Of a stretch of 64,000 nucleotides of DNA, positions 740-62,394 are shown piece after piece. A model generated the notes under the pieces. That model was not told the origin of the DNA, did no database searches, and worked only from the letters and a program-made list of their open reading frames with translations. The translations under genes and the position numbers were made by a program. The stretch is from assembly GCA_029432775.1 (NCBI GenBank), contig JAROAZ010000001.1:124001-188000 (forward strand). Direction: 5' to 3'. Position 1 is the first letter of the stretch; every line of letters starts with the position of its first letter. The stretch comes from Pontiellaceae bacterium B12227 (GTDB lineage Bacteria; Verrucomicrobiota; Kiritimatiellia; Kiritimatiellales; Pontiellaceae).

Positions 740-1522
740 TCAGTTGATCTGGATGGGGTCGGCATCCACGCTTGAAACAACGATCTCTACTCCGCTTCCC
801 AGCGCTTTGGCGAGAATCTTTCCAAAGCTTGGAAGATAGCCCCGTTCGGTGTTGGTGTGTTCGCAGAGAATCACGTGTGAGCCGCTCAGGGTGGACGCCA
901 GCACGTTATGATGACTCATTTCACCCGTAAGGTAACAATCGGCCTCTACGCCCTCAAAAGCGCTGGTTCCGGCCCCTGCGCAGAGTGCTACGGTTTGAAT
1001 AGGCTGATCTTTTGCCGGAGAGGCCACGCGAACGTTCTTCAGATCCAGATATTTTTTAATCCGGCCGGCCAGCGTTTTAAATTTCACCGGCTTCTTCAGC
1101 TCCACGAGCCGACCTTGCCCGGCATCGGAGTTTTCCAAAGGTTGGAGAACGGAAACCTCGCCTTCGCCGACCGCATCTGCCAGCCAGTCGTTCACGCCAC
1201 CGATTACGGCATCGAGCGCTGTATGAGGCGAATAGACCGCAATGTTCTTCTGAATCAGCTTCATTACGGTCCGGTCGTACGCATTGGATGCATTGAACCG
1301 ATTGGCCGGCCGGAAGAGAATGGGGTGGTAGGCCATAATCAGATCAAACTTTCCGGCAATGGCCTCATCCGCCACCGCTTCGGTCAGATCGATCGTCAGG
1401 AGGACACGTTTAATGTTTTTCGGCTTCAACGGATTGATCAGCAGGCCGACGTTGTCCCAATCCTCCGCAAGGTGGAGCGGGGCGATACTTTCCAAGGTCT
1501 GGATAACGGTTTCGAGTTTCAT
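740..1522 (-). CDS. Nif3-like dinuclear metal-binding protein (GTP cyclohydrolase 1 type 2 family)
   Basis: The protein is 260 aa starting MKLETVIQ. An upstream in-frame ATG at 1711 would add 63 residues that are Arg/Pro-rich and encoded by a repeat-like GC-rich stretch, so I reject it. Family features are the N-terminal EDWDNVGLL, AYHPILF, and near the C-terminus HTNTERG with its His and Glu metal ligands; these fit the Nif3/YqfO/DUF34 fold with a two-metal centre. The cellular role of this family is uncertain. One palindrome copy (820-834) encodes part of the C-terminal YLPSFGK stretch. It sits upstream of purM on the same strand, separated from it by an inverted repeat. Confidence 0.85.
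   Translation of the reverse strand: MKLETVIQTLESIAPLHLAEDWDNVGLLINPLKPKNIKRVLLTIDLTEAVADEAIAGKFDLIMAYHPILFRPANRFNASNAYDRTVMKLIQKNIAVYSPHTALDAVIGGVNDWLADAVGEGEVSVLQPLENSDAGQGRLVELKKPVKFKTLAGRIKKYLDLKNVRVASPAKDQPIQTVALCAGAGTSAFEGVEADCYLTGEMSHHNVLASTLSGSHVILCEHTNTERGYLPSFGKILAKALGSGVEIVVSSVDADPIQIN
820..834. repeat. TTCCARNNNYTGGAA palindrome, copy 1
   Basis: TTCCAAAGCTTGGAA inside the Nif3-like gene; read on the minus strand it encodes PSFGK (frame xPxxG). AAGCTT makes this copy nearly a perfect palindrome. Confidence 0.9.
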
Positions 1523-1907
1523 AACGACTATTATGCACAACGCGTGAAAAGGGCGGAAGTGAAATATGGTGTGCTGTGGGAAGCGAAGCGCCACACCGCT
1601 TTTCTGTCGACGGGCTCTGCGTGCGCAAACGCGGCGGCGAGGTCGGGGACCTCGGCTACATGCGTGTAGGGCGGGGGCCGTGACCCCGCCTCGTTCTGGA
1701 CAGGCGGACACGCGGGTCCGCCCCTAAATCGGTGTAGGGGGCGACCCATGTGTCGCTCCGCTCTGTTTTAGAGAGCGGTTAGCTCAATCAACTTGCCGAC
1801 ACAGCAGACCGCCTTCTTCTTCTTTATCTTCCGTTGAATGTATAAAGGCATGTCTTGCCATACGTGTTTTGCTGATTAAACTTATTTTCACCTAACCAGG
1901 AGGACCT
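1523..1907. other. Intergenic region without a recognisable gene
   Basis: This 385-bp divergent region between the Nif3-like gene and the rubredoxin-like gene must hold both promoters. Its middle, about 1663-1757, is GC-rich and made of short hairpins (listed separately). The right part, 1770-1890, is AT-richer and directly precedes the strong ribosome site of the rubredoxin-like gene. I see no tRNA or credible small ORF. Confidence 0.6.
1663..1757. repeat. GC-rich hairpin repeats (gtaggg type)
   Basis: Three short hairpins in a row: GGCGGGGGCCG with its partner CCCCGCC, then GGCGGAC with GTCCGCC, then GGCGACCCATGTGTCGC. Each starts with or follows a GTAGGG word. The same word in reverse (CCCTAC) ends each unit of the tandem array at 15486-15605, so the two are probably related elements. 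Confidence 0.55.
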
Positions 1908-2243: not shown

Positions 2244-2256
2244 ATTAATAACGTTT

Positions 2257-2310
2257 GGAGTGCGCGGGCTTGACCGCGCTTTTTAAAGCGGCGTCAAGCC
2301 GCCGCACTCC
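2257..2310. repeat. Long imperfect palindrome (ggagtgcg...cgcactcc)
   Basis: 26-bp arms around a two-base loop (GGAGTGCG... with ...CGCACTCC), with two mismatches per arm. It lies between convergent genes, just before the V-ATPase terminator. It could end transcription of the rubredoxin-like gene or be a mobile palindromic element; the sequence does not decide. Confidence 0.75.
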
Positions 2311-2320
2311 AGAAGGATAC

Positions 2321-2355: not shown

Positions 2356-2360
2356 GCAGT

Positions 2361-2375: not shown

Positions 2376-2378
2376 AAC

Positions 2379-11689: not shown

Positions 11690-11704
11690 TTCCAAACCTT
11701 GGAA
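11690..11704. repeat. TTCCARNNNYTGGAA palindrome, copy 4 (intergenic, upstream of recA)
   Basis: TTCCAAACCTTGGAA in the divergent recA/sulP region, 10 bp upstream of the recA -35 box, a position where a bound protein could affect transcription. Confidence 0.9.
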
Positions 11705-11827: not shown

Positions 11828-13441
11828 ATGACGAAAACGAATAAGCTGTTTAAACTTAAAATTGAGCGCCCGCGTAATGTCAAAAACGACATTCTCTCCG
11901 GTCTCACGGTGGCACTGGCCTTGGTGCCCGAAGCCGTTGCCTTCTCGTTCGTAGCCAAAGTGGATCCTGTGATCGGCCTCTACGCCGCCTTCATGATGGG
12001 GTTGATAACCGCCATCTTCGGCGGGCGCCCCGGTATGATCTCCGGTGCCACCGGAGCAGTTGCCGTCATCTTTGCTCCGCTGATGATTGAACTCGCTCAA
12101 CCGGGAATACTGCCGGAAGGCGTGACGAAGGAAGGTTACCTTTTTGCCGCCGTCATTCTGATGGGCATCTTCCAGATCCTGTTCGGGGTCTTTAAGCTGG
12201 GTAAGTTTATCCGGTTGGTCCCGCACCCCGTGATGCTCGGCTTCGTGAACGGTCTGGCCATTATCATCTTTAAATCGCAGTTTGAAATGTTCTATGTCGG
12301 CCACGGGGAACACGCACACCTGCTGCCGTTTGCCGATCTGGCTATTATGGGCGGGATGATTGCGTTGACGATGGCCATCAGCTTTTTCCTGCCGAAACTC
12401 ACCAAAGCGGTTCCGGCAACGCTGGCCGGCATTGTTACCGTCACGATCATCGCGCTCGTTCTGCAGAAAATGGGCATTCACGAATCCCGCAACGTACTGG
12501 ATTTCGTTCAGGGTATGGATCCGACCAAAGAAACGATTGCCGCCGGGTTTCCAACCTTTGGAATTCCGAATGTGCCTTTCACCTGGGACGTAATTAAGCT
12601 GATTCTGCCGTTCTCTGCGCTCGCTGCGGCGGTCGGTCTCATTGAATCGCTGATGACCCTGACCCTGGTGGACGAAATCACTGAAACCCGCGGACGCGGC
12701 AACAAGGAATGTATCGGGCAGGGGGTGGCCAACTTCGTGAACGGTTTCTTTGGTGGAATGGGTGGTTGCGCCATGATCGGTCAGAGTATGATCAATATCC
12801 GTGGGGGCGGTCGCGGACGTCTGTCCGGTATTGCCGCCGCGTTGTTTCTACTGGCAATTCTGTTGATTGCCGCACCGCTGGTGGAAATCATCCCGCTCGC
12901 GGCACTGGTGGGTGTGATGTTCATGGTGGTAATCGGCACCTTCGAATGGTCCAGCCTGCGTCTGTTCGGCAGCATTCCGAAAATGGATATCTTTATCATC
13001 ATCCTGGTTTCGGTCGTTACCGTACTGCACGACCTGGCGATTGCTGTACTCGTCGGTATCATCGTTTCTGCGCTGGCCTTTGCCTGGGAGCACGGAAAAA
13101 AGATTCACGCGAAAGTTTCCACGGCAGACAACGGAGCAAAGATTTATCATCTGGAAAGCGCATTGTTTTTCGGTTCGGCTCAGTCGTTTAAAGATCTGTT
13201 TGATCCGTCGGGCGACCCGCAGGATGTGGTGATCGATTTTGAAGAAGCCCGGGTTTATGATCACTCCGGTATTGAAGCCATCAATAATATTACCGAGCGC
13301 TACGCGGACCAAGGCAAGTTTCTGCACTTACTCAACCTGAGTACCGAATGCAAAGAGCTGCTTGATAAAGCCGACAACATTGTTGAACTCAGTGTCATCG
13401 AAAACCTCGACTGGCATATCGCCGACGACCGGTTGGCTTAA
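11828..13441 (+). CDS. SulP-family anion transporter with STAS domain
   Basis: 537 aa inner-membrane protein. About 11-14 membrane helices up to residue 420 or so, then a cytoplasmic STAS domain (HLESALFFGSAQSFKDLF, VVIDFEEARVYDHSG). SulP proteins carry sulfate, bicarbonate or other anions, often with Na+ or H+; the substrate is not readable from sequence. It is 225 bp from the divergent recA gene and is followed by its own terminator. With sulfatases elsewhere in the window sulfate export or import is tempting, but they are not in the same operon. AAGAG before ATG is a modest ribosome site. Confidence 0.9.
   Translation: MTKTNKLFKLKIERPRNVKNDILSGLTVALALVPEAVAFSFVAKVDPVIGLYAAFMMGLITAIFGGRPGMISGATGAVAVIFAPLMIELAQPGILPEGVTKEGYLFAAVILMGIFQILFGVFKLGKFIRLVPHPVMLGFVNGLAIIIFKSQFEMFYVGHGEHAHLLPFADLAIMGGMIALTMAISFFLPKLTKAVPATLAGIVTVTIIALVLQKMGIHESRNVLDFVQGMDPTKETIAAGFPTFGIPNVPFTWDVIKLILPFSALAAAVGLIESLMTLTLVDEITETRGRGNKECIGQGVANFVNGFFGGMGGCAMIGQSMINIRGGGRGRLSGIAAALFLLAILLIAAPLVEIIPLAALVGVMFMVVIGTFEWSSLRLFGSIPKMDIFIIILVSVVTVLHDLAIAVLVGIIVSALAFAWEHGKKIHAKVSTADNGAKIYHLESALFFGSAQSFKDLFDPSGDPQDVVIDFEEARVYDHSGIEAINNITERYADQGKFLHLLNLSTECKELLDKADNIVELSVIENLDWHIADDRLA
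12549..12563. repeat. TTCCARNNNYTGGAA palindrome, copy 5
   Basis: TTCCAACCTTTGGAA in the SulP gene, encoding FPTFGI in a loop before a membrane segment (frame xPxxG). Confidence 0.9.
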
Positions 13442-14537: not shown

Positions 14538-15365
14538 CTACCGAATGCGGACGGCTTTCAGGCGATAGAAGGCGGGGGCGTTGGTGCCGAGGGGCAGGGC
14601 GGTGATGCTGCCCGTGCCGGGCAGGTTGTTGGTGACGGTGTTCCAATGGTTGGAACTGAGATTGCTGGATTGCTCAACCGCATATGCGCAGTTTTCCGAG
14701 GTTTGGAAAACAAGGTTCGACGGCGTGGCGGCGAGGGTCAGCACGCTCAGGCCGTTGGTCGGGTCGGTGTCAGCAATGTATTCCTGCCAGTTGGCGTGGC
14801 CGTCGAAATCGGCATCGAGTAGGTCGTCATCGGGATAACGAATGCCGAATCCGTGCGTCGTCAGCCATGCCGCAGGAGCGAAGTTCGTTCCTGGAGGAAC
14901 CGGCAACCAACCCTCCATATCAAGCTGACCCGCACCAAAGGAATCAACCGTGATCGTCCCCCATCCCAAACGGTTCCAGTTGGTGGGGGTGGTGTATTCG
15001 ATCATCATGTATTTCTTAAACGGAGGGCCGTATGCTAATTGGGGGAGGATGTATTTTAAAGGATCGTATGTGCCGACGATGAAGTTGTTGTCTCCAGAAT
15101 TGAAGTGTGCATTTTCATTGCCCCATAAATCCCAGCCTCTACTCGTTCCGATATTATTATCTGCTGTACGTGTATAGATGCAGACTTCATCAATATTATA
15201 ATCAAAGCTGATGTGCTGGGAGAGGTTGGTCACCGTCGTTACCCAGTTATGCGTTCCATCGGGATTGTCGCCGAGGTATTCCGTCCCGAATTCAACCTCC
15301 AGCGCGGCGCTGGCCGATCCCACCGCCAGCAGCGTTGCAGTCAATAAACTGTACGTTCGAAACAT
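14538..15365 (-). CDS. Secreted protein with Ca-binding-like repeat, unknown function
   Basis: 275 aa with a signal peptide (residues 1-20, ending ASA). No enzyme domain recognised. Around 175-200, DDDLLDADFDGHANWQEY..DTDPT is an Asp-rich calcium-binding-like segment common in surface and secreted proteins of Verrucomicrobia-type bacteria, and the final FYRLKAVRI block is also a recurring end in such proteins. It stands alone. Two palindrome sites, 53 bp apart (14641, and 14694 with one mismatch), encode SNHWN and FQTSE in the C-terminal part. Probably exported; further role unknown. Confidence 0.65.
   Translation of the reverse strand: MFRTYSLLTATLLAVGSASAALEVEFGTEYLGDNPDGTHNWVTTVTNLSQHISFDYNIDEVCIYTRTADNNIGTSRGWDLWGNENAHFNSGDNNFIVGTYDPLKYILPQLAYGPPFKKYMMIEYTTPTNWNRLGWGTITVDSFGAGQLDMEGWLPVPPGTNFAPAAWLTTHGFGIRYPDDDLLDADFDGHANWQEYIADTDPTNGLSVLTLAATPSNLVFQTSENCAYAVEQSSNLSSNHWNTVTNNLPGTGSITALPLGTNAPAFYRLKAVRIR
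14641..14655. repeat. TTCCARNNNYTGGAA palindrome, copy 6
   Basis: TTCCAATGGTTGGAA in the secreted-protein gene, minus-strand codons SNHWN. Same central bases as copy 2. Confidence 0.9.
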
Positions 15366-15611: not shown

Positions 15612-15635
15612 AAAGCCCGGCGGGGGCCGGGCTTT
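15612..15635 (-). terminator. Intrinsic terminator of the nqr operon
   Basis: Minus strand AAAGCCCGGC, four-base loop, GCCGGGCTTT followed by TTC; perfect 10-bp stem 17 bp after the nqrF stop, with palindrome copy 7 wedged between. Confidence 0.88.
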
Positions 15636-15648
15636 CCAAGGTTTGGAA
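15634..15648. repeat. TTCCARNNNYTGGAA palindrome, copy 7 (intergenic)
   Basis: TTCCAAGGTTTGGAA between the nqrF stop (15652) and the terminator hairpin, overlapping the hairpin by two bases. Same placement as copy 2. Confidence 0.9.
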
Positions 15649-18127: not shown

Positions 18128-18754
18128 TCAGTTCCCCTTAATTGATTTAAAGTATTCAGCGTACGCAGCAGCATCTTTCTGGATCAGGATCTGTACCCCT
18201 TTACCAGTGAGTGTTGCTCCCGAGATTCCATCCACCGAAGTGTCGGTCAGCGGGGTGCCCGGCTTAACCACCAGGAAGTCCACCGCTGTTCCGGCTTCAT
18301 AAAGCTTCTTGCCGGTGAACTGGTTGAGGAACCAGGGTTTTTCAATTTCAGCACCCAAACCCGGAGTTTCTCCGTGCTTGTAGAAACTGATACCCGCAAT
18401 GGTTTCCAGATCCGCTTCAAGCGAGAGGTAGCCATAGAGCATACTCCAAAGACCTTTTCCAGAGATTGGAAATGCGTATTTGGAAGCTTTGTCGGCCCCT
18501 TCATCGGTCCAGGTAAAGATCGGCAGGTCGCCGGCTTTATCTTCAGCCACGTGTTTTTCGAACGTCGCTTCAATGCCCGGACGGTCCATCGAGCTGATGT
18601 CGATGCCGAAGGCTTTCACGATGTTCCGTTTTACGTCGAAGGCTTCGTTGGCCTGCTGAGCAGGTTTCAGCACCGATGCCGTAACGGAGAGCAGCAGACT
18701 GACCACGAGGCAGGTAACGCCTGCGAAAACAAATGTTCTAGTATCTTCACGCAT
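18128..18754 (-). CDS. nqrC: Na+-NQR subunit C
   Basis: 208 aa, one N-terminal membrane helix and a periplasmic domain carrying covalently bound FMN; the attachment threonine is Thr181 in SGAT. The protein is shorter than the proteobacterial form (about 255). ATG overlaps the end of nqrB by 8 bp. Palindrome copy 8 encodes FPISGK at 95-100 in a conserved region, so it fits without harming function. Confidence 0.95.
18457..18471. repeat. TTCCARNNNYTGGAA palindrome, copy 8
   Basis: TTCCAGAGATTGGAA, the only perfect copy inside the nqr genes (minus-strand codons PISGK in nqrC). Confidence 0.9.
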
Positions 18755-38895: not shown

Positions 38896-38910
38896 TTCCA
38901 ATCATTGGAA
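38896..38910. repeat. TTCCARNNNYTGGAA palindrome, copy 20 (intergenic)
   Basis: TTCCAATCATTGGAA between the divergent tlyA and first sulfatase genes, 48 bp from the tlyA start codon. Confidence 0.9.
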
Positions 38911-40601: not shown

Positions 40602-41992
40602 TGTTCCGGTATCTCATCGCCTGTTTCCTGCTGGCCGGCTCGGTGCTGGCCAAACCCAATATTATCTACATCAACGCCGACGATCTCGGCGTGATGGATG
40701 TGAATTATAACAGCGACCGCTATCTTACGCCCAACATCAACCGGCTTTGTGCCGAGGGCATGGTGTTCAGCGAAGCCTATGCCGCTGCCGCCAACTGCGC
40801 GCCCAGCCGGGCGTGTGCCATGAGCGGGCAATATGCTCCGCGGCACGGCGTCTATACGGTCGGAAATTCAGATCGCGGCGCTGCCAAGCATCGGAAGCTG
40901 ATTCCGATTATGAATACGGAAAAACTGGCACTGGATAATCTGACCATTGCAGGCGCGTTACAGCAGGCCGGCTATAAGACGATTCATCTCGGCAAGTGGC
41001 ATCTGGGGGATGATCCAACACAGCAGGGTTTTGATATCAACATTGGTGGCGACATGTCCGGAGGCCCTTCCGGTGGCGGATACTTTTCTCCGTTCAGCAG
41101 AGGACCCATGACGGCCTACAACGACAAATATCCGGAAGGAACCCACCGGGTCGATATCTTTGCGGATCAGGCCGTGAAGTTCATGCAGGTTTACCGCGAA
41201 CAGCCGTTTTTTATGTATATGTCATTTTATTCGGTGCATACCAAACTGGAACCGGTTCCCGGGCTGGTTGAAAAATACGATCCATCCAGGGTCCGGCCGG
41301 ACTATGCGTCTATGATTGAAAAGATGGACCAGGGCATCGGCCGTATTCTGAATGCCCTGGAGCAACTCAATCTCAAAAGAAACACGTTGGTGGTGTTCAC
41401 TTCCGACAATGGCGGCATCAAAAAAACGTCCAGTCAGGCACCGTTCCGCTCCGGAAAAGGCTCTTATTTCGATGGCGGCATCCGTGTGCCGTTGGTCATC
41501 CGCTGGCCCGGCCATGTTTCACAGGCGCTGTGTGAAGTTCCAGTGTCTGGAATCGACTTCTATCCCACCTTCCTGGAAGCGGCCGAACTCCCCGTGCCGG
41601 AGGGTAAAGTGCTGGATGGCGTGAGCCTGACCCCGTTGTTTAAAAAACGCGGTACGATTCCGGAACGCCCGCTGTTCTGGCATTTTCCAGTTTATCTGCA
41701 GAAATATGCCGGCAAGGGCGATGATTCGCACGACGAATATTTCCGCACGCGCCCCGGTTCTGTGATTCGACTGGGCCGTTGGAAGCTGCACGAATATTTT
41801 GAAGACGGTCGCATTGAACTCTACGATCTCGCCGCCGATCCCGCTGAGCGCATGAACTTCGCGCATATTCATCCGGAAAAGGCATCTGCAATGCATCAGA
41901 TGCTGAAGGATTGGCGCAAAGAAACGAACGCGCCGGTGCCGACCGAGCTGAATCCGAAGTACAAAGCCGAGACAGCATCGAGCAGCAAATAA
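40601..41992 (+). CDS. Secreted S1-family sulfatase 2
   Basis: 463 aa, signal peptide 1-17. Formylglycine site Cys66 in CAPSR, the Ala variant of the CxPSR motif. Active-site parts ADDLG, HLGKWHLG, FTSDNGG. Start overlaps the previous stop (TAATG), which implies coupled translation and a joint pathway on one polymer. Palindrome copy 21 encodes PVSGI near residue 315. Confidence 0.93.
   Translation: MFRYLIACFLLAGSVLAKPNIIYINADDLGVMDVNYNSDRYLTPNINRLCAEGMVFSEAYAAAANCAPSRACAMSGQYAPRHGVYTVGNSDRGAAKHRKLIPIMNTEKLALDNLTIAGALQQAGYKTIHLGKWHLGDDPTQQGFDINIGGDMSGGPSGGGYFSPFSRGPMTAYNDKYPEGTHRVDIFADQAVKFMQVYREQPFFMYMSFYSVHTKLEPVPGLVEKYDPSRVRPDYASMIEKMDQGIGRILNALEQLNLKRNTLVVFTSDNGGIKKTSSQAPFRSGKGSYFDGGIRVPLVIRWPGHVSQALCEVPVSGIDFYPTFLEAAELPVPEGKVLDGVSLTPLFKKRGTIPERPLFWHFPVYLQKYAGKGDDSHDEYFRTRPGSVIRLGRWKLHEYFEDGRIELYDLAADPAERMNFAHIHPEKASAMHQMLKDWRKETNAPVPTELNPKYKAETASSSK
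41538..41552. repeat. TTCCARNNNYTGGAA palindrome, copy 21
   Basis: TTCCAGTGTCTGGAA in sulfatase 2, encoding PVSGI. Confidence 0.85.
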
Positions 41993-43508: not shown

Positions 43509-44948
43509 GTGAAACAACGTACGGCCAGTTTGTGGGTAGTGGTTCCTGTAATTATCATTTGCGGGGCCGTTGCTGTTGTGTCGTTTTCAAATTGGATCGG
43601 AAACGATTCTTCCTATCAACTTTCCCGCAGTCTGCCCGGCATGGACGGCGGGCCTCCGCAATCCGAACGCGATCAATCCGGCGAGCTGGATGTGGAACTG
43701 ACCGGAACGCTGGAAACGTTCGATGGAACCCCGTCTGCACTGCCCGGCAGCTGGCCGCGGTTCCGCGGCGAGGATTTTGATAACATTTATAAGGGCGATG
43801 CAAAGCTGGCCGACTCCTGGCCCGTTGAAGGCCCCGAGATCCTCTGGTCGGTCGGGCTGGGCGAGGGGCACGCTGCTCCCGCCGTGCTCAATGGCCGGGT
43901 TTATCTGTTCGATTATGACGAAGAGCAGCGAGCCGATGCACTACGTTGTTTTTCGCTGGATGACGGCAAAGAGATCTGGCGCCGCTCCTATGCGCTCCCG
44001 GCCAAGCGAAACCACGGTCTTTCCCGGACCATTCCAGCGGTCACCGAAGACTGCGTGGTAACCATCGGCCCGCGCTGCCATGTTTCCTGTGTCGACACCG
44101 AAACCGGTTCATTCCGTTGGGGCATTGATTTGCAGAAAGACTTTGGAACCACCGAGCCGCTTTGGTTTACCGGACAGTGCCCGCTGATTGATGAGGGCAA
44201 AGCCATTATCGCTCCCGGCGGCCCCGACACCTTGCTGATGGCTGTGGATTGTGCAACGGGCGAAGTGCTCTGGCAGACCCCGAATTCCAAAGGTTGGAAA
44301 ATGTCGCACTCGTCGGTGATGCCGCTCACGCTGTATGGTGAAGAGATGTATGTCTACGCGGCAGTCGGCGGCATGGTCGGTGTTTCCAAAACCGGCAACC
44401 TCCTGTGGGAGATTCCGTGGAATGCTTCCGTAATTGCGCCGTCGCCGGTTCCTATCATTGGAAACCGGATCTTCCTCACGGCCGGCTACGGCTCCGGCAG
44501 TCTGTTGGTGCAGATTGAAAAGGACGACGTTGCATACACTGCCAGGGAACTTGCGAAGCACGGTCCTAAAGACTGGATGGCCAGCGAGCAGCAGACACCG
44601 ATTCTGCTCGACGGCCTGCTCTACGGCATTATGCCGAAAGACGCCGGCGCGCTGAAACAACAGTTTGTCTGCTATAATCCCGACAGCGGCGAGTTGGTCT
44701 GGTCCAGTGGAAAAACGCACCGGTTCGGGCTCGGCCCGTTCCTGCTGGCCGGCGATAAATTCTACGTGCTCGACGACGACGGAACGCTCACCATGATCGC
44801 GCTCAGCCGAACCGGCTATGAGCAGTTGGCGCAGTTCCGCATTCTCGACGGTCATGATGCCTGGGGGCCGATTGCACTCGTCGGCACCCGTATGCTCCTG
44901 CGCGACTCCACCCGCATGGTTTGCGTTGAGATGGGAGAGGGTAAATGA
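43509..44948 (+). CDS. Membrane-anchored PQQ-like beta-propeller protein 1
   Basis: 479 aa with GTG start (43509). One membrane helix at 8-27, then a propeller of PQQ-like repeats (VLWQTPNSKGWK, LLWEIPWNASVIAPSPVPI, LVWSSGKTHRFGLGPFL) facing the periplasm. Such propellers can bind a quinone cofactor or only act as scaffolds (BamB-like); no dehydrogenase catalytic set is recognisable. It overlaps the NHL gene by 4 bp. First gene of the redox cluster, so I infer an electron-transfer or sensing role. Confidence 0.82.
   Translation: MKQRTASLWVVVPVIIICGAVAVVSFSNWIGNDSSYQLSRSLPGMDGGPPQSERDQSGELDVELTGTLETFDGTPSALPGSWPRFRGEDFDNIYKGDAKLADSWPVEGPEILWSVGLGEGHAAPAVLNGRVYLFDYDEEQRADALRCFSLDDGKEIWRRSYALPAKRNHGLSRTIPAVTEDCVVTIGPRCHVSCVDTETGSFRWGIDLQKDFGTTEPLWFTGQCPLIDEGKAIIAPGGPDTLLMAVDCATGEVLWQTPNSKGWKMSHSSVMPLTLYGEEMYVYAAVGGMVGVSKTGNLLWEIPWNASVIAPSPVPIIGNRIFLTAGYGSGSLLVQIEKDDVAYTARELAKHGPKDWMASEQQTPILLDGLLYGIMPKDAGALKQQFVCYNPDSGELVWSSGKTHRFGLGPFLLAGDKFYVLDDDGTLTMIALSRTGYEQLAQFRILDGHDAWGPIALVGTRMLLRDSTRMVCVEMGEGK
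44285..44299. repeat. TTCCARNNNYTGGAA palindrome, copy 22
   Basis: TTCCAAAGGTTGGAA in propeller gene 1, encoding SKGWK. A one-mismatch site follows at 44449. Confidence 0.9.
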
Positions 44949-45892
44949 AATCATCTGCTAAAAACTGGATATGGTTCCTCGCGCTGATCGGGTTGATCGT
45001 CGGCGGTGGATTATTTGTGGGCAGGAACCGCCGCGCCGATTTAGGCAAAAGTTTCACCTACTCGCTGGATGAATACCGGCAGGTGGATCCGCTGTTAATT
45101 CAATATGCAGAGGTCGAACCGGTTGTTCCAGCCATTGGAAACCCGACCGCGCTTGCACTGGCACGAGGCTTCGTCTGTGTAGGCGGCTCAAATGGGATTG
45201 AAGTGATCGGCGATAAAACCATTCCGGTTGTTGGAACAGTCACCTGCCTAGCCTTTGATGATGAAGGAACTCTGTTTGCTGGCGTACAGGATCATATCAT
45301 AAAAATTCCCAAAGATGGCGAAATCCAGATTTGGCCGTCGCCGTCAGAAAAAGCCTATCTGACTTCCATTGATGTCGACGACTGGTATGTCTATGTTGCC
45401 GATGCTGGGAGCCGCCGGATCTGGCGCTACAAAAAAGAGGGCGGCGCGCCGTTTGAGATCGGGAAGAAGGACTGGGCCAACGGGGTGCGCGGATTTTATA
45501 TTCCAAGTCCTTACTTTGATCTGGCCATCAGTCCGGCCGATGGCTCGGTGTGGGCCGTAAACTCCGGTCACCATGCGGTCGAAAACTATCGCCCCGACGG
45601 CATGCCGCTTTCCAGCTGGGAGGCAACCGGAATGCACATTGAAGGGTTCAGTGGTTGTTGCAATCCGTCGCACTTTGCGCTGCTGCCCGACGGTGGGTTT
45701 GTGACGGCCGAAAAAGGGCTGCCGCGCGTGAAAATTCATAATGTCGACGGTTCGCTACGCTGCGTGGTTGCCGCTCCCGATCAGTTTGAGGATGACGTAA
45801 CGGGGCTGGACGTTGCCGTGGGGCCGAATGGGAAAATTTATGTGCTGGATCCGGCCCGGAACCGGGTGCGGGTATTTGAGGAAAAGAAATGA
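44945..45892 (+). CDS. Membrane-anchored NHL-repeat protein
   Basis: 315 aa. Membrane helix at 7-26 and a periplasmic propeller of NHL type (NPTALALARGFVCVGGSNGIEV, GLDVAVGPNGKIYVLDPARNRVRVF). CCNPSHFALLPDGGF contains a Cys pair at about 239. Overlaps propeller 1 and the 58-aa gene by 4 bp each, so the three are surely one operon. Function unknown; NHL domains usually bind partner proteins or peptides. Confidence 0.82.
   Translation: MKSSAKNWIWFLALIGLIVGGGLFVGRNRRADLGKSFTYSLDEYRQVDPLLIQYAEVEPVVPAIGNPTALALARGFVCVGGSNGIEVIGDKTIPVVGTVTCLAFDDEGTLFAGVQDHIIKIPKDGEIQIWPSPSEKAYLTSIDVDDWYVYVADAGSRRIWRYKKEGGAPFEIGKKDWANGVRGFYIPSPYFDLAISPADGSVWAVNSGHHAVENYRPDGMPLSSWEATGMHIEGFSGCCNPSHFALLPDGGFVTAEKGLPRVKIHNVDGSLRCVVAAPDQFEDDVTGLDVAVGPNGKIYVLDPARNRVRVFEEKK
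45126..45140. repeat. TTCCARNNNYTGGAA palindrome, copy 23
   Basis: TTCCAGCCATTGGAA in the NHL gene, encoding PAIGN. A one-mismatch site follows at 45222. Confidence 0.9.
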
Positions 45893-48908: not shown

Positions 48909-50648
48909 ATGGCACAAAACTTTAATTTTAAACAAAAACCTATGCTGAGCCTCATGGCCAAAAGTGCGGCGATGGTGGCCGGTCTGTTTGCGCTGGTTAT
49001 AGCGGTGCTGCTGATCGGGGATCACCTGCGGTTGCTTAAAATGGATCCGCTGAACGATCCGACGTTGCTGGAGCTGCGGGATCAGCTGGCAGAGTCGAAC
49101 GAAAACACGGACGCGGTTGTTGAACAGATCCGGACGTATGACCTCTATGCGCGTCGGGCCTTTTTCAGTAATCAGGAAGAGCGCCGAGCGGGCGGAGGTT
49201 TATTGCTGGCCGGCACGGTGGTCTGTTTTCTTGCGCTGAAACTTTCCAATCATTGGAACCCGAAACTTCCGGACATTGGAAAATCCGATACACCGGATCA
49301 CTGGGAACTGAACAGCCTGTTTCGTCAACTGATGGTCGGGGCCGGAATCTTTTTGGTTGCCGTTTCGCTCTTTTTCGCTTTTGTGGTTCAAAGTGATTTA
49401 TCGGTGGTGTTAGCGCATGCTGAACTGGCTGAGCAAGGCCGGCAGGATGCCGTCGATACCGAAGTCGTACCGCAGGCTTCCAGTGAGCTTGCTGAAGAGA
49501 TGAAATCCAACTGGCCGTCACTACGCGGACCGGGCGGGATCGGGCATGCGCATATGGATGACGCACCGATCAGCTGGGATGTAGAGTCGGGCGAGGGCGT
49601 GCTGTGGAAGGCGGAGGTATATGTTCCCGGATTTAATTCGCCGATCGTCTGGGATGACCGAATCTTTATGTCGGGTGCGGATGAAGAGGGGCAGGAAGTG
49701 TTCTGTCATGATGCTAACAGTGGAGAGGAACTTTGGTCGGTTACGATTGCGTCGGAGGTTGAGCCGCCGGAGGTTTCGGAGGATACGGGCTATGCCGCCC
49801 CGACGATGGCATCGGACGGTCAGCGAGTGTTTGCCATCTTTGCATCCGGCGATCTGGTTGCCCTGGATCTGGATGGAAAAGTCATCTGGCAGAAAAACCT
49901 GGGTGTACCGGACAATCCGTATGGCATGGGCTCTTCGTTGATGGCGGATGCGCAGCGGGTTTATGTGCAGTACGATCATTCTGATGCCCAGAAGGTGATG
50001 GCATTTGACGGGGCTTCGGGCAACGAGTTGTGGCGCACGGCCCGCGAGCATATTTCCTGGTCCACCCCGGTCCTGATCGAATCTCCGATTGGAACGCGAC
50101 TCGTGCTGAACGATGAAGAGCATGTGACGGCGTATGATCCAACCAATGGGAAGTCGCTTTGGCAGGTGAAATGTCTCGGTGGCGAAGTGGCACCTTCCGC
50201 TGCTTTCAATGGTTCGAACATCGTTTTTGTGGCGAATGAATACGCGCAGGCCACGGCATTGAAGCTGAATGGTGCAACGCCGGAGATTATCTGGCAGTAC
50301 GATGAATACCTGCCGGAAATTGCCAGTCCGGTGGCTACCGAGAAATATGCCTTTATCGCAACAACGGCGGGCGACATCATCTGTCTGGACATTCAGACGG
50401 GCGCAGTGAAGTGGGAGCAGGAATTTGATGAAGGGTTTAATTCCTCGCCCATCCTGGTCGACAATAAGATTTATGCCATCGATCTCGAGGGCATGGTGCA
50501 TATCATTGATGCAGAAGCTGAAACGTTCCACGAAATCGCCGTCATCGAAATGGGCCAACCCGTTTACACCACGCCTGCCTTCGTGAACAACCGCATCTAT
50601 ATTCGCGGAGAGGAAACCCTCTTTTGTATTGGGACTAATAAACACTAA
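48909..50648 (+). CDS. Membrane PQQ-like beta-propeller protein 2
   Basis: 579 aa. Two membrane helices (about 16-38 and 133-158) enclose a roughly 95-residue loop, followed by a BamB/PQQ-like propeller from about 200 to the end: GEELWSVTIAS, GKVIWQKNLGV, GNELWRTAREH, GKSLWQVKCLG, GAVKWEQEFDEG. These tryptophan-dock repeats are the family signature. Paralogue of propeller 1 at the other end of the membrane block. Two palindrome sites 23 bp apart (49244 and 49267) lie between its two helices. Confidence 0.82.
   Translation: MAQNFNFKQKPMLSLMAKSAAMVAGLFALVIAVLLIGDHLRLLKMDPLNDPTLLELRDQLAESNENTDAVVEQIRTYDLYARRAFFSNQEERRAGGGLLLAGTVVCFLALKLSNHWNPKLPDIGKSDTPDHWELNSLFRQLMVGAGIFLVAVSLFFAFVVQSDLSVVLAHAELAEQGRQDAVDTEVVPQASSELAEEMKSNWPSLRGPGGIGHAHMDDAPISWDVESGEGVLWKAEVYVPGFNSPIVWDDRIFMSGADEEGQEVFCHDANSGEELWSVTIASEVEPPEVSEDTGYAAPTMASDGQRVFAIFASGDLVALDLDGKVIWQKNLGVPDNPYGMGSSLMADAQRVYVQYDHSDAQKVMAFDGASGNELWRTAREHISWSTPVLIESPIGTRLVLNDEEHVTAYDPTNGKSLWQVKCLGGEVAPSAAFNGSNIVFVANEYAQATALKLNGATPEIIWQYDEYLPEIASPVATEKYAFIATTAGDIICLDIQTGAVKWEQEFDEGFNSSPILVDNKIYAIDLEGMVHIIDAEAETFHEIAVIEMGQPVYTTPAFVNNRIYIRGEETLFCIGTNKH
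49244..49258. repeat. TTCCARNNNYTGGAA palindrome, copy 24
   Basis: TTCCAATCATTGGAA in propeller gene 2, encoding SNHWN; a one-mismatch partner begins 23 bp later (TTCCGGACATTGGAA). Confidence 0.9.
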
Positions 50649-53053: not shown

Positions 53054-54474
53054 TGAGTGTGGAACTGAGTGTTAATGGAAAGTCCGTGTCGGTGGAGTCC
53101 GGGGCCACCGTGCTGGATGCGGCGGAAAAGATCGGGATAGAAATCCCGACCCTCTGCCACCTAAAGGGCCGCGAGCCGGAAACCTCGTGTATGCTCTGTG
53201 TGGTGAGCCATCAGGGCCGGTTGATTCCTTCGTGCTCTGCCAAAGCGGCCGACGGAATGGAGATCGATACCGAGTGCGAAGCTGTGCAGGCAGCACGAAA
53301 GGATATTCTGAATCTGCTGCTGAGTGAACACGTGGGCGACTGCGAGGCTCCGTGTGTGCGGATCTGTCCGGCCGGACTGGATATCCCGCTCATGTTGCGG
53401 GAAATTGAGCGGGGAAATCTGGAAGCTTCGGCCCGGATTGCGAAGCGGGATCTGGCGATTCCTGCGACGCTGGGCTATGTGTGTCCGGCTCCTTGCGAAA
53501 AGGGATGCCGACGTGGACAGATGGATGCCGCGCTGGAAATCCGCACCTCACACCGACAGGTTGCTGAACAGTTCCAGACCTTGGAAACTGATTTTCCAGA
53601 CCTTGGAAAAAGCATTGCGGTCGTCGGCGCCGGAGCCGCTGGACTTTCCGCTGCCTGGAAGCTGCGACAGCTCGGTTATGGCTCTACGGTTTTTGATAAG
53701 GCGGAGCAGGCCGGCGGTGATTTGAGGAACCATGAAACACTTCCACTGGAGGTGCTGGATGCCGAGGTTGAATCGTTGCGGCAGGCGGGCATTGATTTTA
53801 AATTGGGGAAGGCGCCATCCATCCATGATATTGCTGATGGATTTGCCGGGGTTGTTTTTGCATCGGAAGAATATTCAAACACGGAGTTCGCCGATGCCTT
53901 CTATGCGGAAGAACATAAGCTGGCGGTTAAAGCGGTGACCAATGGGAAAGCCGCCGCGGTTGCGCTGGATCAATTTCTGAGGGGCGAAGTTCCAATCCCT
54001 GGAAAACCATTTGATTCAAAAATCGGAAAACTGCGGGATGCGGAACTGGAGGAGCTGAAGAAAAACTGTTCTGAGTCCGTTCCGGTGGAAGACCTCGCAG
54101 CGGAGGCGGCGCGTTGCCTTCATTGCGACTGCCGGAAACCGGCTAGCTGTAAACTGCGGAAATATGCAGAGCAATACGGAGCGGATCAAAAGGAATTTCC
54201 TGCGGATGAACGCGGGCATGTACAGTTGATCGGCCATGATGAAGCCGTCCTGTTTGAACCGGGCAAATGTATTAAGTGCGGGCTGTGTGTGAAAATAACC
54301 AAAGAAGCCGGCGAAGAGCTGGGACTGACCTTTGTGGGGCGCGGATTCAATACGCGTATTGCGGTTCCGCTGGGCCGCAAGCTGGAAGAAGGATTACGAT
54401 CGGCCGCCAAAGCCTGCGTTGAACATTGCCCGACGGGTGCGTTGGCATTTTCTGATTCGGAAGAGCGCGGCTGA
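53053..54474 (+). CDS. NuoG/GltD chimera: ferredoxin plus FAD-Rossmann Fe-S protein
   Basis: 473 aa. Residues 1-80: [2Fe-2S] domain (Cys35, 46, 49, 61). Residues 93-160: HVGDCEAPC and CPAPCEKGCRR, the GltD-type [4Fe-4S] domain. Residues 186-300: FAD-binding start VVGAGAAGLSAAWKL, but the second (NADPH) Rossmann domain of GltD is missing, so the flavin part is short. The C-terminus has CLHCDC and CIKCGLC..C..HCPTG clusters. No H-cluster or molybdopterin domain. It probably takes electrons from the NuoEF fusion. Three perfect palindromes lie in it, two in the linker before the Rossmann fold. Confidence 0.8.
   Translation: MSVELSVNGKSVSVESGATVLDAAEKIGIEIPTLCHLKGREPETSCMLCVVSHQGRLIPSCSAKAADGMEIDTECEAVQAARKDILNLLLSEHVGDCEAPCVRICPAGLDIPLMLREIERGNLEASARIAKRDLAIPATLGYVCPAPCEKGCRRGQMDAALEIRTSHRQVAEQFQTLETDFPDLGKSIAVVGAGAAGLSAAWKLRQLGYGSTVFDKAEQAGGDLRNHETLPLEVLDAEVESLRQAGIDFKLGKAPSIHDIADGFAGVVFASEEYSNTEFADAFYAEEHKLAVKAVTNGKAAAVALDQFLRGEVPIPGKPFDSKIGKLRDAELEELKKNCSESVPVEDLAAEAARCLHCDCRKPASCKLRKYAEQYGADQKEFPADERGHVQLIGHDEAVLFEPGKCIKCGLCVKITKEAGEELGLTFVGRGFNTRIAVPLGRKLEEGLRSAAKACVEHCPTGALAFSDSEERG
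53572..53586. repeat. TTCCARNNNYTGGAA palindrome, copy 25
   Basis: TTCCAGACCTTGGAA, encoding FQTLE in the interdomain linker; identical in sequence to copy 26, which starts 22 bp later. Confidence 0.9.
53594..53608. repeat. TTCCARNNNYTGGAA palindrome, copy 26
   Basis: Same 15 bases as copy 25 but in another reading frame, encoding PDLGK. The pair shows that the DNA word is kept while the peptide differs. Confidence 0.92.
53990..54004. repeat. TTCCARNNNYTGGAA palindrome, copy 27
   Basis: TTCCAATCCCTGGAA, encoding PIPGK in the NuoG/GltD-like gene. Confidence 0.88.
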
Positions 54475-54475
54475 T

Positions 54476-57916: not shown

Positions 57917-60274
57917 ATGAGAAAAAACATCAGTCTGAAGGACGACTGGAAATTTATTAAGGACGACATCGAAGGCGCACAGGCCGTTGCGTTTAACGAT
58001 GCGGCATGGCGTACTGTGCAGGTTCCGCACGACTGGAGTGTGGAAGAGTCGTTCGATGAAAAATGGGAAGGCGCCACCGGCTATCTTCCCGGCGGCATCG
58101 GCTGGTATCGTAAAAGTTTCCAATCATTGGAAACCGAAAAAACCTATCTGCACTTCGACGGTGTTTATAACCGGGCAACGATCTGGCTGAACGGGGAAAA
58201 ACTAGGCGATCATCCGTATGGGTACTCACCGTTTTTCTATGAAATTTCCGATCAGGTTAAAGCCGGTGAAAACGTGATCGCGGTGCGTGTGGATCATTCC
58301 CGCTATTGTGACAGCCGCTGGTATACCGGCTCCGGAATCTACCGCAGTGTGGAACTGGTCGGGACCTCTGAAACGCATATCCCGGTCTGGGGAACCTTCG
58401 TCACCACGCCGGACATCAGTGAGGAGAAAGCGTCTGTTCGGTTGCAGGTTGAAATCCGGAATCCGGGCGATGCCGAGGTAACGACCGTTATAACGGATCC
58501 CGACGGGAGAGCAGTGGCTGAACAGTCCATGCCGGCCAGTAAGGAAATTATCCAGACCCTGGAAGTTTCCAGACCCAGTATGTGGAACCTCGACGCACCG
58601 AACCTCTACAAGGCGGTAACTACCGTTTCCAAAGAGGGGAAGCCGGTCGATGAATATACGACCACCTTCGGAATCCGCACGATCCGGTTCGATGCCAACG
58701 AGGGATTCTTCCTCAACGGACAAAATATGAAGATCAAAGGCGTCTGTCTGCATCATGATGGTGGATGCGTCGGGGCGGCTGTACCGAAGGATGTCTGGCG
58801 GCGTCGTTTTGAAACACTGAAGGCGGGCGGGGTGAATGCCGTCCGTATTGCCCACAACCCCGGTTCCGATGAGTTTATTACGCTGTGCGATGAAATGGGG
58901 TTGCTGGTACAGGATGAATTCTACGATGAGTGGGACAGTCCCAAAGATAAACGCATGAATATGAACGAGCAGCATGACGATTATATCTCGCGCGGCCATG
59001 CTGAATATTTTCAGGAATGGGCTGAATGCGATCTGAAAGACGTCATGCGTTCGCATCGCAACCATCCTTCCATTTTCCAGTGGAGCATCGGTAATGAAAT
59101 CGAATGGACCTATCCGCGCAATGCCGAAGCCACCGGTTTCTTTGATGCCTCGTGGGACGGAAACTATTTCTGGGAACAGCCGCCGCATGCGCTCGATGAA
59201 ATCAAGCGGCTGATGAAAGAGCTTCCGCGCGGTGAATACGATATTGGTAAAACCGCGCAGAAGCTGGCGAAATGGACAAAAGAACTCGATACTTCCCGAC
59301 CGGTGATTGCCAACTGCATCCTGCCCTCATCCAGCTATGAATCCGGCTATGCCGACGCGCTCGATGTTATCGGCTACAGTTATCGGCGGGTGATGTATGA
59401 CTACGGTCACGAACGCCGTCCTGACCTTCCGGTGATGGGCACCGAAAATCTGGCTCAGTGGCACGAGTGGAAAGCCATTGAAGAGCGACCGTTTGTTGCG
59501 GGAACCTTCCTTTGGACGGGCATTGATTATATGGGTGAGGTAAACGGCCAATGGCCGAAGCGGGCGACGGATTCCGGTCTGCTTGACACCGCCGGTTTTG
59601 AAAAAGGCTCATTCCATATGATGAAGACGTTGTGGAGTGACGAACCGCATGTGCACCTGACGACGCAGACCCTGGAAAAATCACCGTACATTTTTGATGC
59701 GTCGACGGGCTTTATCGGCGAAGAAGATTCCAATGCCTGGAAACAAAAGCTTTGGGTCTGGCACGACGTCAATACGCATTGGAATTATGCCGCCGGCGAA
59801 ATGATTGCGGTGGAGGTTTATTCCAATTGCGCCGCGGTTGAGCTGTTTCTCGATGGCGAATCGCTCGGCGTAAAACAGTTGGCCGACTTTGAAGATCGTA
59901 TTTACAAATGGGCGGTTCCGTTCAGGGCGGGCAGGCTGGAGGCCCGGGCAGCGGATGCTTCGGATCAAATGATCACGGCCGGAAAGGCTGCGGCCATTCA
60001 GCTGGAAGCCGATGGCTGCCATGTGATTGCTCAGTTGGTTGACGCTGAAGGGACTCCCGTTAAAACTGAAGAACACGAAATGGTGTTCAAGGTGTCGGGC
60101 GCAAGCATTCTCGGAGTCGATAACGGGGCACCGGATAATATTCAGGATTTCCTGGCGGGTCGCATTGTCACCTCACAGGGCCGCTGCCTGCTGGTGGTGG
60201 ATGGAGCCTGCGACGTGCAGGCATCCGCTGCCGGACTGAGCGACTGTTCGATTCAGGTTGAGGGGGCGAAATGA
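57917..60274 (+). CDS. Glycoside hydrolase family 2 (beta-galactosidase-like)
   Basis: 785 aa, no signal peptide. N-terminal jelly-roll sugar-binding domain ([11 protein letters not shown]), immunoglobulin-like domain from about 165, TIM barrel from about 265. Acid/base Glu394 in IGNEIEW and nucleophile Glu510 in MGTENLAQ match GH2. Extra C-terminal domains resemble those of bacterial beta-galactosidases acting on algal galactan oligomers. Overlaps GH50 by 4 bp. Two perfect palindromes inside. Confidence 0.92.
58118..58132. repeat. TTCCARNNNYTGGAA palindrome, copy 28
   Basis: TTCCAATCATTGGAA in the GH2 gene, encoding FQSLE. One-mismatch site at 58550. Confidence 0.9.
59728..59742. repeat. 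TTCCARNNNYTGGAA palindrome, copy 29
   Basis: TTCCAATGCCTGGAA in the GH2 gene, encoding SNAWK. Confidence 0.88.
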
Positions 60275-62394
60275 TCCGCCTTTGCAATAGGACCTGCTGG
60301 AAGCAGGCGCTACAGAAGCCGCTTGCCGGCGTTGTATTCTGTCTCTTTTCGGTCGGAGCAACGGCACAACCACTCGAACTGGTCTCGCTGAAGGATGGCG
60401 AGCGGCATGCACGCATCGAATATCTGGACACGGAAATTATCCAAACATTGGAAAACGGGATCATGGTTCAGACGGGCGGCGTGGAGGAGTGGCCGAATAT
60501 TACGTTCCGGGCATTGGAAAAGCCGTGGGACCTTCGCGGCCGTTTTACCGTTCAGGTGGATCTGACAAATGCCGGAAGCTCGCCGGTGAATATCGGCATA
60601 AGGCTGGATAATCCCTACGAAAATAAAGAGGACGCGCCGCAGCATGCACAGGGGTTTGAAATTCTTGACCCGGCGGAGACGCGAACGGTCAGCATCCGCC
60701 TCTCTTCCGAAGATTGGATTTTTGAAAAGCCGTTGGAGCTGGTCGGTATGCGCCGTGCGCCGGGCATTGAACTGATGAACCTGGCTGAGATCGACCGTAT
60801 ATCTGTTTTTGTGGGCAATGCCTCGGGGCCGCAGACGTTCATCGTAAGCAATATTCGTGCTGAAGGTTCCGTGAAAAAAGTCGACGGCTCCGGTTTTCTC
60901 CCTTTTGTTGATCAGTACGGTCAGTACAAACATGCCGACTGGAAAGGGAAAATTCATTCGGATGCCGACTTAGCGGCAGCCCGGAAGGCGGAGGCGGCCG
61001 ATTTTATAAAAGTTCCAGGCATTGGAAACCTGGGCAAATTCGGTGGATGGAAAGACGGGCCCAAGCGTGATGCGACCGGTTTCTTCCGCGTTGAGAAAGT
61101 GGATGGCAAATGGTGGTTTATTGATCCGGAAGGGTTGCTTTTCTGGTCTAACGGCCCGACCTGCATGGATTCGAACTTCGGCTACACCGGGATTCAGGAT
61201 CGGGAACACTATTTCGAAAACCTCCCGGCTGATGATTCCCCGCTGGGACAGTTTTATGGTCGCAGCACCTGGGCACCGCACGGTTTTTATGCCGACAAGA
61301 TTCCGTTTAAAATGCAGAAAACCTACAAGGCCAACCTTTATCGAAAATATGGTAAAAACTGGAACGAGGCCTTTATTGATGTGGCCCACAAACGCCTTAA
61401 GAGCTGGGGCATGAACACCGTGGCCAACTGGGCCGAGCCGGACCTGTATAAAAAGCAGCGCACGCCGTATGTGGCTAACTTTTTCATTCGGGACAACCGC
61501 ACCCTGGAAGGATCCAATGGATATTGGAGCAAGTTTCACGATGTGTTTGATCCGTCCTTCCGCGGATCGATCCGGAAAAACCTGGCTGACCGGAAACAGG
61601 AGTGCAGCGATCCGTGGTGTATCGGGTTTTATGTTGATAACGAAATGTCGTGGGGTGGCGATGGAATGTCGCTGGCGCTGGAGACACTGGCCTGTCCGGC
61701 AGATCAACCGGCCAAGATTGAGTTTCTGCGCGACCTGAAGGCCAAATACAAAAGCATTACTCAACTCAATGCCGCCTGGGGGGCTGAACATGCTTCGTGG
61801 ACGGCGCTCGGGGAATCGACGGACGCGCCGGACATCGCACGTGCGGGAGAAGACCTGAAACAGTTTTACATGAAAACGGCGGATACCTATTTCAGTATCG
61901 TAAAAAACGAATTGAAAACCGCAGCACCGAATCACCTCTATCTGGGATGCCGTTTTGCCTGGGTCAACGATGCGGTCGCCATCTCCGCATCCCGATACTG
62001 CGATGTCGTCAGCTATAATAAATATAATCACAGTATTCGCAGCCTGCGACTGCCGTATTTTATCGACCGTCCCATGATCATCGGTGAATACCATTTCGGC
62101 GCAACCGATCGAGGCCACTTTCATCCGGGCCTGCGTGAAGCCGATACGCAGGAAGAACGGGCGGATAAATTTAAGCGGTATATCACCAGCGCACTGGATA
62201 ATCCGCAAATGGTCGGTGTTCACTGGTTCCAATATGTAGATGAACACATCGCAGGACGCGCCGACGAAGAAAACTATAATGTCGGGCTGGTTGATATATG
62301 CGACACACCGTATCCGGAAATGGTCGAGGCCATGCGATCAACGGGCGAAAAACTCTATGAATACCGGGGTGAAATGCCGGGGGAAAGGCAATGA
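60271..62394 (+). CDS. Secreted GH50-type beta-agarase-like enzyme
   Basis: 707 aa with an N-terminal hydrophobic export segment (about 17-33, ending ATAQ). Residues 35-200 form a CBM-like beta domain; the barrel follows with [15 protein letters not shown] and [12 protein letters not shown]. Catalytic Glu458 in YVDNEMSWG and Glu606 in IIGEYHFGA fit GH50, whose known members release neoagarobiose from agar chains. Related galactans (porphyran) are possible targets. ATG 60271 overlaps the GH2 stop by 4 bp. One perfect and two one-mismatch palindromes inside. Confidence 0.88.
61013..61027. repeat. TTCCARNNNYTGGAA palindrome, copy 30
   Basis: TTCCAGGCATTGGAA in the GH50 gene, encoding PGIGN between the beta domain and barrel. 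One-mismatch sites at 60439 and 60505. Confidence 0.9.

Follow-up and report, generated by a model that had tools for sequence, protein, structure and literature searches.

A highly iterated 15-bp palindrome kept as DNA within genes of Kiritimatiellia: candidate docking sites for a dimeric protein

A 64-kb stretch of the genome of Pontiellaceae bacterium B12227 (Kiritimatiellales; contig JAROAZ010000001.1, positions 124,001 to 188,000; the window) carries 30 perfect copies of a 15-bp palindromic word, TTCCAN5TGGAA, and the whole genome (G000; 6.29 Mb in 206 contigs) carries 2297, compared with six copies of a reversed control word. In the best-supported account the copies in the window's genus are mostly isolated sites that have been written into genes, and several relatives have pairs and rows of them spaced by two or three helical turns. 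On balance, we read these copies as docking sites, spread over the genome, for a dimeric protein whose dimers bind next to one another along the chromosome, most likely in an architectural role. We infer from the letters themselves that a protein would bind here, that it would do so as a dimer, and that it would wrap or otherwise organise the DNA.

Abundance of the word and its conservation within genes

The first-pass annotation of the window had listed 30 perfect sites, and all of them were recovered, to the base (Table 1). Dinucleotide shuffles of the window held a mean of 0.14 copies and never more than one (100 shuffles), which is of the same order as the 0.06 copies that had been expected. 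When up to one arm mismatch is allowed there are 60 sites (30 perfect and 30 near) compared with 2.88 expected; the annotation had noted this excess and undercounted it, at about 22 near-sites. It was accurate in reporting that all 30 window sites have a purine after the left arm (position 6) and that 29 have a pyrimidine before the right arm (position 10).

The word was examined further in a 664-kb sample of G000, comprising the window, 400 kb adjoining it on its contig and 200 kb from a second contig, and in other genomes, designated G001, G009 and so on; open reading frames (ORFs) are crude longest-open-frame calls throughout. Of the 192 sites in the G000 sample, 186 have C or G as the centre base, as do 237 of 255 sites in G001, and a T lies just outside the arm in 57% of half-sites (72 sites); the fuller consensus is tTTCCARNSNYTGGAAa. 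Sites are not evenly spaced, since counts per 10 kb in G000 are mildly overdispersed (variance/mean 1.39, with 10 of 66 bins empty compared with 3.7 expected).

The annotation had placed 26 of the window copies in genes, in all three frames; the frames stand and the number is about 27 of 30 (27 by the ORF calls). Across the G000 sample 160 of the 192 sites lie in ORFs, divided 57/54/49 among the frames; sites number 7.24 per 10 kb of intergenic DNA and 2.58 per 10 kb of ORF. Shuffling synonymous codons within genes gave a mean of 16.6 ORF sites (maximum 25, 20 shuffles) and shuffling codon order a mean of 1.3 (10 shuffles), compared with the 160 observed. The equivalent values for G001 are 197 observed, 22.2 (maximum 34) and 1.4. 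The synonymous-shuffle mean is an overestimate, since the shuffle keeps the amino acids that the word encodes, and the excess of the word goes beyond codon use. Position within genes is uniform in G001 (p=0.89) and skewed towards the 3' end in G000 (quartiles 25/33/38/55).

Between about 28 and 62 kb the window is collinear in parts with six genomes of the same genus. In codon alignments of the orthologues, sites differ by point changes that are often synonymous and in no case by a 15-bp insertion; 55 of 57 sites aligned gap-free across the word, and the remaining two, both in G001 pairs, fell in gaps. Retention was scored in reciprocal best pairs, with the expectation taken from background identity. 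From G000 to G001, at 73% DNA identity, 12 of 14 sites are retained compared with 1.1 expected; the corresponding values are 4 of 10 (0.5) from G000 to G027, 2 of 5 (0.4) from G000 to G009, 2 of 4 (0.4) from G001 to G027 and 8 of 10 (0.7) from G001 to G009. Identity at third codon positions is 247/290 (0.85) in the arms, 76/125 (0.61) in the inner bases, 349/666 in the flanks and 20032/39970 (0.50) in the rest of the genes, with five genome pairs pooled in both directions so that one orthologous site may count repeatedly. At first and second positions, pooled in the same way, it is 500/540 (0.93) in the arms, 211/290 (0.73) in the inner bases and 0.81 in the rest. Since identity is high in the arms and low between them, it can be seen that the arms are held while the coding between them drifts. 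These alignments indicate that point substitution creates the sites, which are then retained.

It had been proposed in the annotation that the DNA word is what is kept, with a full-genome count, a codon-preserving shuffle and an orthologue alignment suggested as checks. The genome-wide count is far above the control, the excess survives the shuffle, and sites persist in orthologues while their inner bases drift; codon shuffles, retention and the comparison of arms with inner bases all agree with the proposal.

Half-sites, helical phasing and rows

Between the two halves, inner letters agree at a frequency of 0.60 at position 5 (0.59 expected) and 0.24 at position 6 (0.29 expected; n=192, G000). 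Since the halves vary independently, whereas a base-paired hairpin would show an excess of matching, they behave as the two half-sites of a dimer and not as a hairpin. Tolerance of change is graded along the arm. In the G000 sample a single change of the last arm base from A to G is found 52 times compared with 6.6 expected, and single changes of the first T to A, C or G are found 32, 21 and 10 times compared with 4.2, 3.0 and 2.3 (63 compared with 9.5 in sum). Changes within the TCC core number at most 13 each and are mostly near expectation, the highest being T to C (13 compared with 2.4). The near-form profile of G001 resembles that of G000, and part of the near-form excess may represent sites in decay. 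As judged from the sequence, the pattern would fit a dimeric DNA-binding protein with the half-site TTCCARNS.

The spacing of neighbouring sites was scored by taking one gap per cluster and asking whether it fell within 1.5 bp of a multiple of 10.5 bp, for which the chance value is 0.33. All clusters were phased in G028 (9/9) and G037 (15/15), which were sampled blind (contigs C1-C10), and in G048 (7/7), giving 31/31, of which 24 come from the blind genomes. The adjacent gaps are 21 (six times), 31, 31, 32, 64, 96 and 116 bp in G028, and 22, 30, 31 (eight times), 32, 42, 42, 51, 74, 83, 94 and 115 bp in G037. The best period is 10.4-10.6 in G028, G037, G048, G057 and G015, and in the rows of G048 and G057 spacings of 31 and 32 bp are equally or nearly equally common, averaging about 31.5 bp, or three turns.

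Pairs of sites within 220 bp number 21 in G000 (11.1 expected) and 59 in G001 (25.3 expected). Rows of at least three sites are present in 23 of 58 genomes of relatives (G000 included), the reversed control giving none in all 58. One row in G000 has six sites 30-32 bp apart and lies directly after a gene. The gene setting of clusters was judged by whether homology to a reference ORF spans the site, which it does for 17/26 single and 4/8 multiple clusters in G028 and for 7/39 single and 2/12 multiple clusters in G037. Some close pairs in these two genomes are thus genic.

Several individual rows were recorded. In G015, with a genome total of 41 copies, contigs C98, C99 and C250 (L313, L334) have variant rows of the form TTCCAY...RTGGAA at spacings of 31, 30 and 22 bp near the contig starts, and the recognised word may differ by lineage. 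Two phage contigs, Mu-like by ORF reading, have rows of 4 and 6 sites together with degenerate ones upstream of a terminase-like gene (L265, ~3034-3164; L266, ~2786-2946). G000:C206:43200 and G009:C262:24508 (L316) have similar clusters of three sites, in which a terminator-like stem surrounds one of the sites. The genes flanking the G009 cluster read as argG and lysA, and in G031 (L321) a lysA-like gene adjoins a row.

Distribution and interpretation

Among the 58 genomes the count of the word ranges from 3 to 2297. It is 181-1091 in all 14 genomes sampled from the order's second family, and G027, G005, G021 and G032 have 1146, 670, 829 and 951 copies. By hand tally of a phylum-wide sample, 33 of the 97 genomes from the class reach at least 50 copies; none of the 191 from other classes does, the highest count there being 30. 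A search for spaced palindromes ranked the word first in nine carrier samples and an overlapping form first in three (G048, G057 and G006). Part of the sequence sampled from G005, G015 and G024 consisted of loci chosen for other searches, among them two pieces each from G005 and G015 chosen for the word itself; runs of N spoiled the result for G037. No other palindrome of comparable strength was found in 40-kb samples of the word-poor genomes G004, G018, G011, G016, G046 and G055. The G+C content is 50-65% in carriers and 29-68% in non-carriers (samples) and does not explain the presence of the word, because the non-carrier range spans that of the carriers.

Other palindromes were seen in passing. 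In 40-kb samples of G051 and G053 (L351-L354) other spaced palindromes are mildly enriched (best p 5e-10 and 3e-8), among them GGCCCN3GGGCC (7 compared with 0.16 expected) and TTCAAN4TTGAA (6 compared with 0.17). In G137, from another class of the phylum, TTCCAN5TGGAA is absent and the reversed word AAGGTN5ACCTT occurs 55 times, compared with 0-15 in the other genomes of the table; it is possibly another iterated palindrome.

If the word marks docking sites, each subunit would read one half-site TTCCARNS, with the dyad on the central C/G pair. Dimers would lie next to one another on the same helical face, at intervals of two or three turns, so that a row of sites would bend or wrap the DNA. 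A sequence-specific nucleoid or chromosome-organising protein would be the likeliest occupant, since most G000 sites fall within a variety of genes, where they are conserved, and no target class was seen. A bolder version, which we put forward tentatively and consider less probable than its opposite, is that Kiritimatiellia have a chromosome-coating, sequence-specific protein of an unrecognised kind, with dimers stacking at intervals of two or three turns. The word that it prefers would have been point-mutated into thousands of gene positions at a cost in amino acids, and would drift between lineages (TTCCAY in G015 for TTCCAR), so that genome and protein co-evolve. The nucleoid proteins usually described are weakly sequence-specific; a protein that binds this word would differ in being an architectural protein of strong sequence specificity with sites in the thousands, and a DNA-binding preference would be reshaping proteins genome-wide.

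Several observations weigh against docking sites. No binder was identified among the Lrp family, the genes beside rows and the ORFs of phage contigs. The loci examined beside rows share no recurring regulator, their gene neighbours differing between loci. Viral contigs supplied 12 row-bearing stretches (from 11 contigs, of which at least two read as Mu-like from their ORFs); in the two that were read ORF by ORF, no binder was recognised. Among the candidates in the annotation, protein binding is the best fit to independent half-sites, graded tolerance and phasing in relatives. For an essential site the range of counts within one genus, single digits to 2297, is wide. The annotation had asked whether the word is absent from all close relatives: G004, G018, G011 and G016, of the same genus, have no excess, and many others carry it. 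Same-genus genomes without the excess would provide a natural contrast for finding the binder. No site is retained from G000 to G005 (0/8, 0.4 expected) and one from G000 to G021 (1/4, 0.4 expected). Phasing is weak in G000, where perfect sites are in phase in 9/18 clusters (R=0.36, p=0.09; with near-sites included R=0.42, p=0.005), and perfect sites in G001 are unphased (15/37 clusters, p=0.47). The G048 and G057 stretches were not blind, being contigs where sites had already been listed, and the 5/5 phased clusters of G057 come from rows that resemble copies of each other. Nor is the intergenic status of the G048 and G057 rows settled: homology spans the site in 0/15 and 0/6 clusters, with few reference proteins matched nearby, and 21/28 and 10/22 sites fall in plain-called, possibly spurious ORFs.

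The annotation had also likened the word to HIP1 of cyanobacteria, and as a dispersed, coding-tolerant palindrome the analogy holds. HIP1 is mostly located in genes and, to our knowledge, the purpose of HIP-like words is still open. The present word has the large genome-wide excess of such words and lies in coding sequence in all frames, conserved as DNA. According to the available part of PMC4390886, HIP1 and the other iterated palindromes of cyanobacteria are likewise frequent, apart from exceptional genomes in which they are scarce. Unlike HIP1, the word is 15 bp long with a 5-bp gap, its core is not GATC and its half-sites are graded; it has whole-turn spacing and rows in relatives and no consistent link to a PF01555 methyltransferase, and sampled carriers (at least 50 copies) all belong to one class of Verrucomicrobiota. 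The best-supported account is that it works like the HIP type and is arranged like Lrp-type operators, while being neither HIP1 nor shown to be read by Lrp. The annotation's interpretation therefore stands as regards conservation of the DNA word and the HIP1 analogy, with a binding site as the best fit and a role that we infer; its methylase candidate, considered below, is disfavoured.

That the word is the site of one global transcription regulator, with functional intergenic rows and coding copies that are by-products or fine-tune transcription, is unlikely. The intergenic density is about three times that in ORFs and whole-turn rows resemble Lrp-type operators, but most sites of the G000 sample are in ORFs and sites are retained in orthologous genes. 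No target class was seen (2.49 sites per 10 kb in sulfatase/GH2-like genes compared with 2.60 in others), and genes adjoining the examined rows vary by locus. With small numbers and crude ORFs, divergent intergenic regions of G000 are not favoured (0.63 sites per kb, compared with 0.69 in tandem and 0.63 in convergent regions) and those of G028, G037 and G048 have no sites; on the same basis the divergent/tandem/convergent values are 1.6/1.05/1.52 in G001 and 3.08/1.08/3.76 in G057. No site lies in 20 kb of sulfatase, beta-galactosidase and transporter genes at L014 (G000:C11:180001-200000), where about six would be expected; a depletion of sites from sulfatase islands was considered and is not borne out by the density in sulfatase/GH2-like genes.

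Lrp-family proteins bind inverted repeats of 13-17 bp at two- or three-turn spacing and wrap DNA, and arginines are important in their recognition, one being required (PMC2995911, available part). The word resembles Lrp/AsnC operators, on the same partial source, as a dimer-read inverted repeat of this size with two- or three-turn spacing and wrapped DNA; the spacing matches in relatives and is weak in G000. It is unlike them in its C/G centre, which is not AT-rich, and in its thousands of mostly genic copies. Lrp itself was rejected as a poor fit for the binder: a match is present in 52 of 58 genomes, nearly always one, whatever the word count, and its recognition stretch varies among carriers about as much as towards non-carriers (the non-carrier G018 differs from the carrier G009 at 4 of 19 residues). 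The G000 stretch that aligns, by reading, to the recognition helix contains no arginine. No site was found within 2.5-3.5 kb around the Lrp gene in 27 of 30 loci; the others are G027, with a site 1 kb upstream, and G037 and G032 of the second family, where one site coincides with the beginning of the open frame or lies close to it, and Lrp may conceivably regulate its own gene in that family.

Similarly unlikely is a DNA uptake sequence, in which a competence receptor would prefer the word and biased uptake with recombination would drive it into genes. Its distribution is uptake-like, with thousands of copies that lie mostly in ORFs yet are denser intergenically, with near-forms, and bound to a lineage. 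According to the available part of PMC1939737, uptake sequences (DUS/USS, the DNA uptake sequences and uptake signal sequences) are likewise dispersed with near-forms, 65% of Haemophilus and 35% of gonococcal copies being in ORFs, and are over-represented outside coding regions. They are not palindromes, however, whereas the word is one with equal halves, and the term 'helical' is absent from that paper. The uptake tag named in the annotation thus fits the distribution and explains neither the palindrome nor the whole-turn spacing and rows. A ComEC match was found in 54 of 58 relatives and in 35 of 35 genomes at least 90% complete; since carriers and non-carriers alike have it, ComEC does not discriminate. 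The ComEC match of G053 (G053:C1:1409676-1410500) has three in-frame TAG codons, and no general TAG recoding was found in a 43-kb sample of that genome.

An orphan methyltransferase target, comparable to GATC/CGATCG within HIP1, is improbable. The core CCAN5TGG equals the type II specificity of PflMI. TT/AA flanks count as well, 192 of the 481 CCAN5TGG of the G000 sample being flanked by TT on both sides, and near-forms are enriched (A to G above all, to which decaying sites could contribute), unlike strict restriction-modification recognition. HIP1 goes with methyltransferases in cyanobacteria (PMC4390886, available part). Here the N6/N4 methyltransferase family PF01555 is patchy, its profile does not separate carriers from non-carriers, and it was not found in the carriers G005, G031, G037 and G057; PF00145 (C5) and other families were not searched.

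More improbable again is a mobile or inserted palindrome (REP/RAYT, BIME or an in-frame mini-element). The rows of G048 and G057 look similar to REP/BIME elements, and those of G057 resemble copies of one another. Eight Y1 transposase-like matches in G000 lie in loci with 18 sites in 26 kb, about twice the background, and two window sites (53572, 53594) lie in a linker with indels. Unlike REP/BIME, the word in the window's genus is formed by substitution inside genes, no insertion or transposase link having been seen, and the Y1 loci have no constant flanking pattern. Least probable is an RNA or DNA hairpin such as a terminator or cruciform. The word is palindromic and a few copies extend to longer stems (3/192 in G000, 8/255 in G001), but inner positions do not co-vary and outward pairing of at least 4 is rare (3/192 in G000).

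The word, in several spellings, was absent from the open-access literature searched, and none of the titles listed by wider searches concerned it; an earlier description in subscription papers or preprints is possible. The available part of a spaced-motif survey (PMC5217627) contains no TTCCA, and the available parts of Pontiella papers (including PMC10880615) make no mention of 'palindrom'.

Individual sites in the window

Table 1. Perfect sites and selected near-sites of the word, in window coordinates.
Feature	Position	Strand	Remark
Perfect site TTCCAAAGCTTGGAA	820..834	.	word match
Perfect site TTCCAATGGTTGGAA	2361..2375	.	word match
Perfect site TTCCAGCCGTTGGAA	10340..10354	.	not in G005 orthologue, HQRME in place of FQRLE
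Perfect site	11690..11704	.	intergenic per ORF calls
Perfect site	12549..12563	.	word match
Perfect site	14641..14655	.	word match
Perfect site	15634..15648	.	probably intergenic; only a doubtful short ORF
Perfect site	18457..18471	.	word match
Perfect site	22639..22653	.	word match
Perfect site	23583..23597	.	word match
Perfect site	24464..24478	.	sole window site without pyrimidine before right arm
Perfect site	24636..24650	.	word match
Perfect site	24974..24988	.	word match
Perfect site, MlaE permease gene	28789..28803	.	present in G009; G027 and G024 differ by two synonymous arm changes
Perfect site	32746..32760	.	present in G027; not in G009, G005, G024
Perfect site, aminoacyl-tRNA synthetase gene	34577..34591	.	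in 9/19 rows compared, equal to 8/18 genomes (two rows apparently one record)
Perfect site, MFS gene	37045..37059	.	kept in G001, one inner base changed
Perfect site, MFS gene	37346..37360	.	kept in G001, G024, G027
Perfect site	38183..38197	.	kept in G001; 1-3 arm bases off in five others, no direction of change assigned
Perfect site	38896..38910	.	intergenic per ORF calls
Perfect site, ORF 40601-41992	41538..41552	.	genic by codon alignment; G001 two bases off
Perfect site	44285..44299	.	kept in G001
Perfect site	45126..45140	.	kept in G001, two inner bases changed
Perfect site	49244..49258	.	kept in G001
Perfect site, first of pair 22 bp apart	53572..53586	.	in variable linker with indels among orthologues
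Perfect site, second of 53572 pair	53594..53608	.	kept in G001
Perfect site	53990..54004	.	kept in G001
Perfect site, GH2 gene	58118..58132	.	kept in G027
Perfect site, GH2 gene	59728..59742	.	kept in G027
Perfect site	61013..61027	.	not in G027
Near-site TTCCGAGGTTTGGAA	14694..14708	.	last arm base A to G, the commonest single change
Near-site TTCCGATATCTGGAA	34354..34368	.	one arm mismatch
Near-site TTCCGGACATTGGAA	49267..49281	.	23 bp from 49244; perfect in G001
Near-site TTCCGGGCATTGGAA	60505..60519	.	one arm mismatch

The aminoacyl-tRNA synthetase of Table 1 is presumably glycyl-tRNA synthetase; the nearest named matches of the window's protein are from Kiritimatiellales bacterium OB10 (93%) and Kiritimatiellaeota NIOZ-UU71 (83%). 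In the linker aligned to window positions 53560-53610, the orthologues of G006, G005 and G013 (L026, L028, L030) carry GGACTGACCCCT, and that of G005 has a second form, CTGACCCCT, after GGACTGACCCCT, where G000 has two copies of the word.

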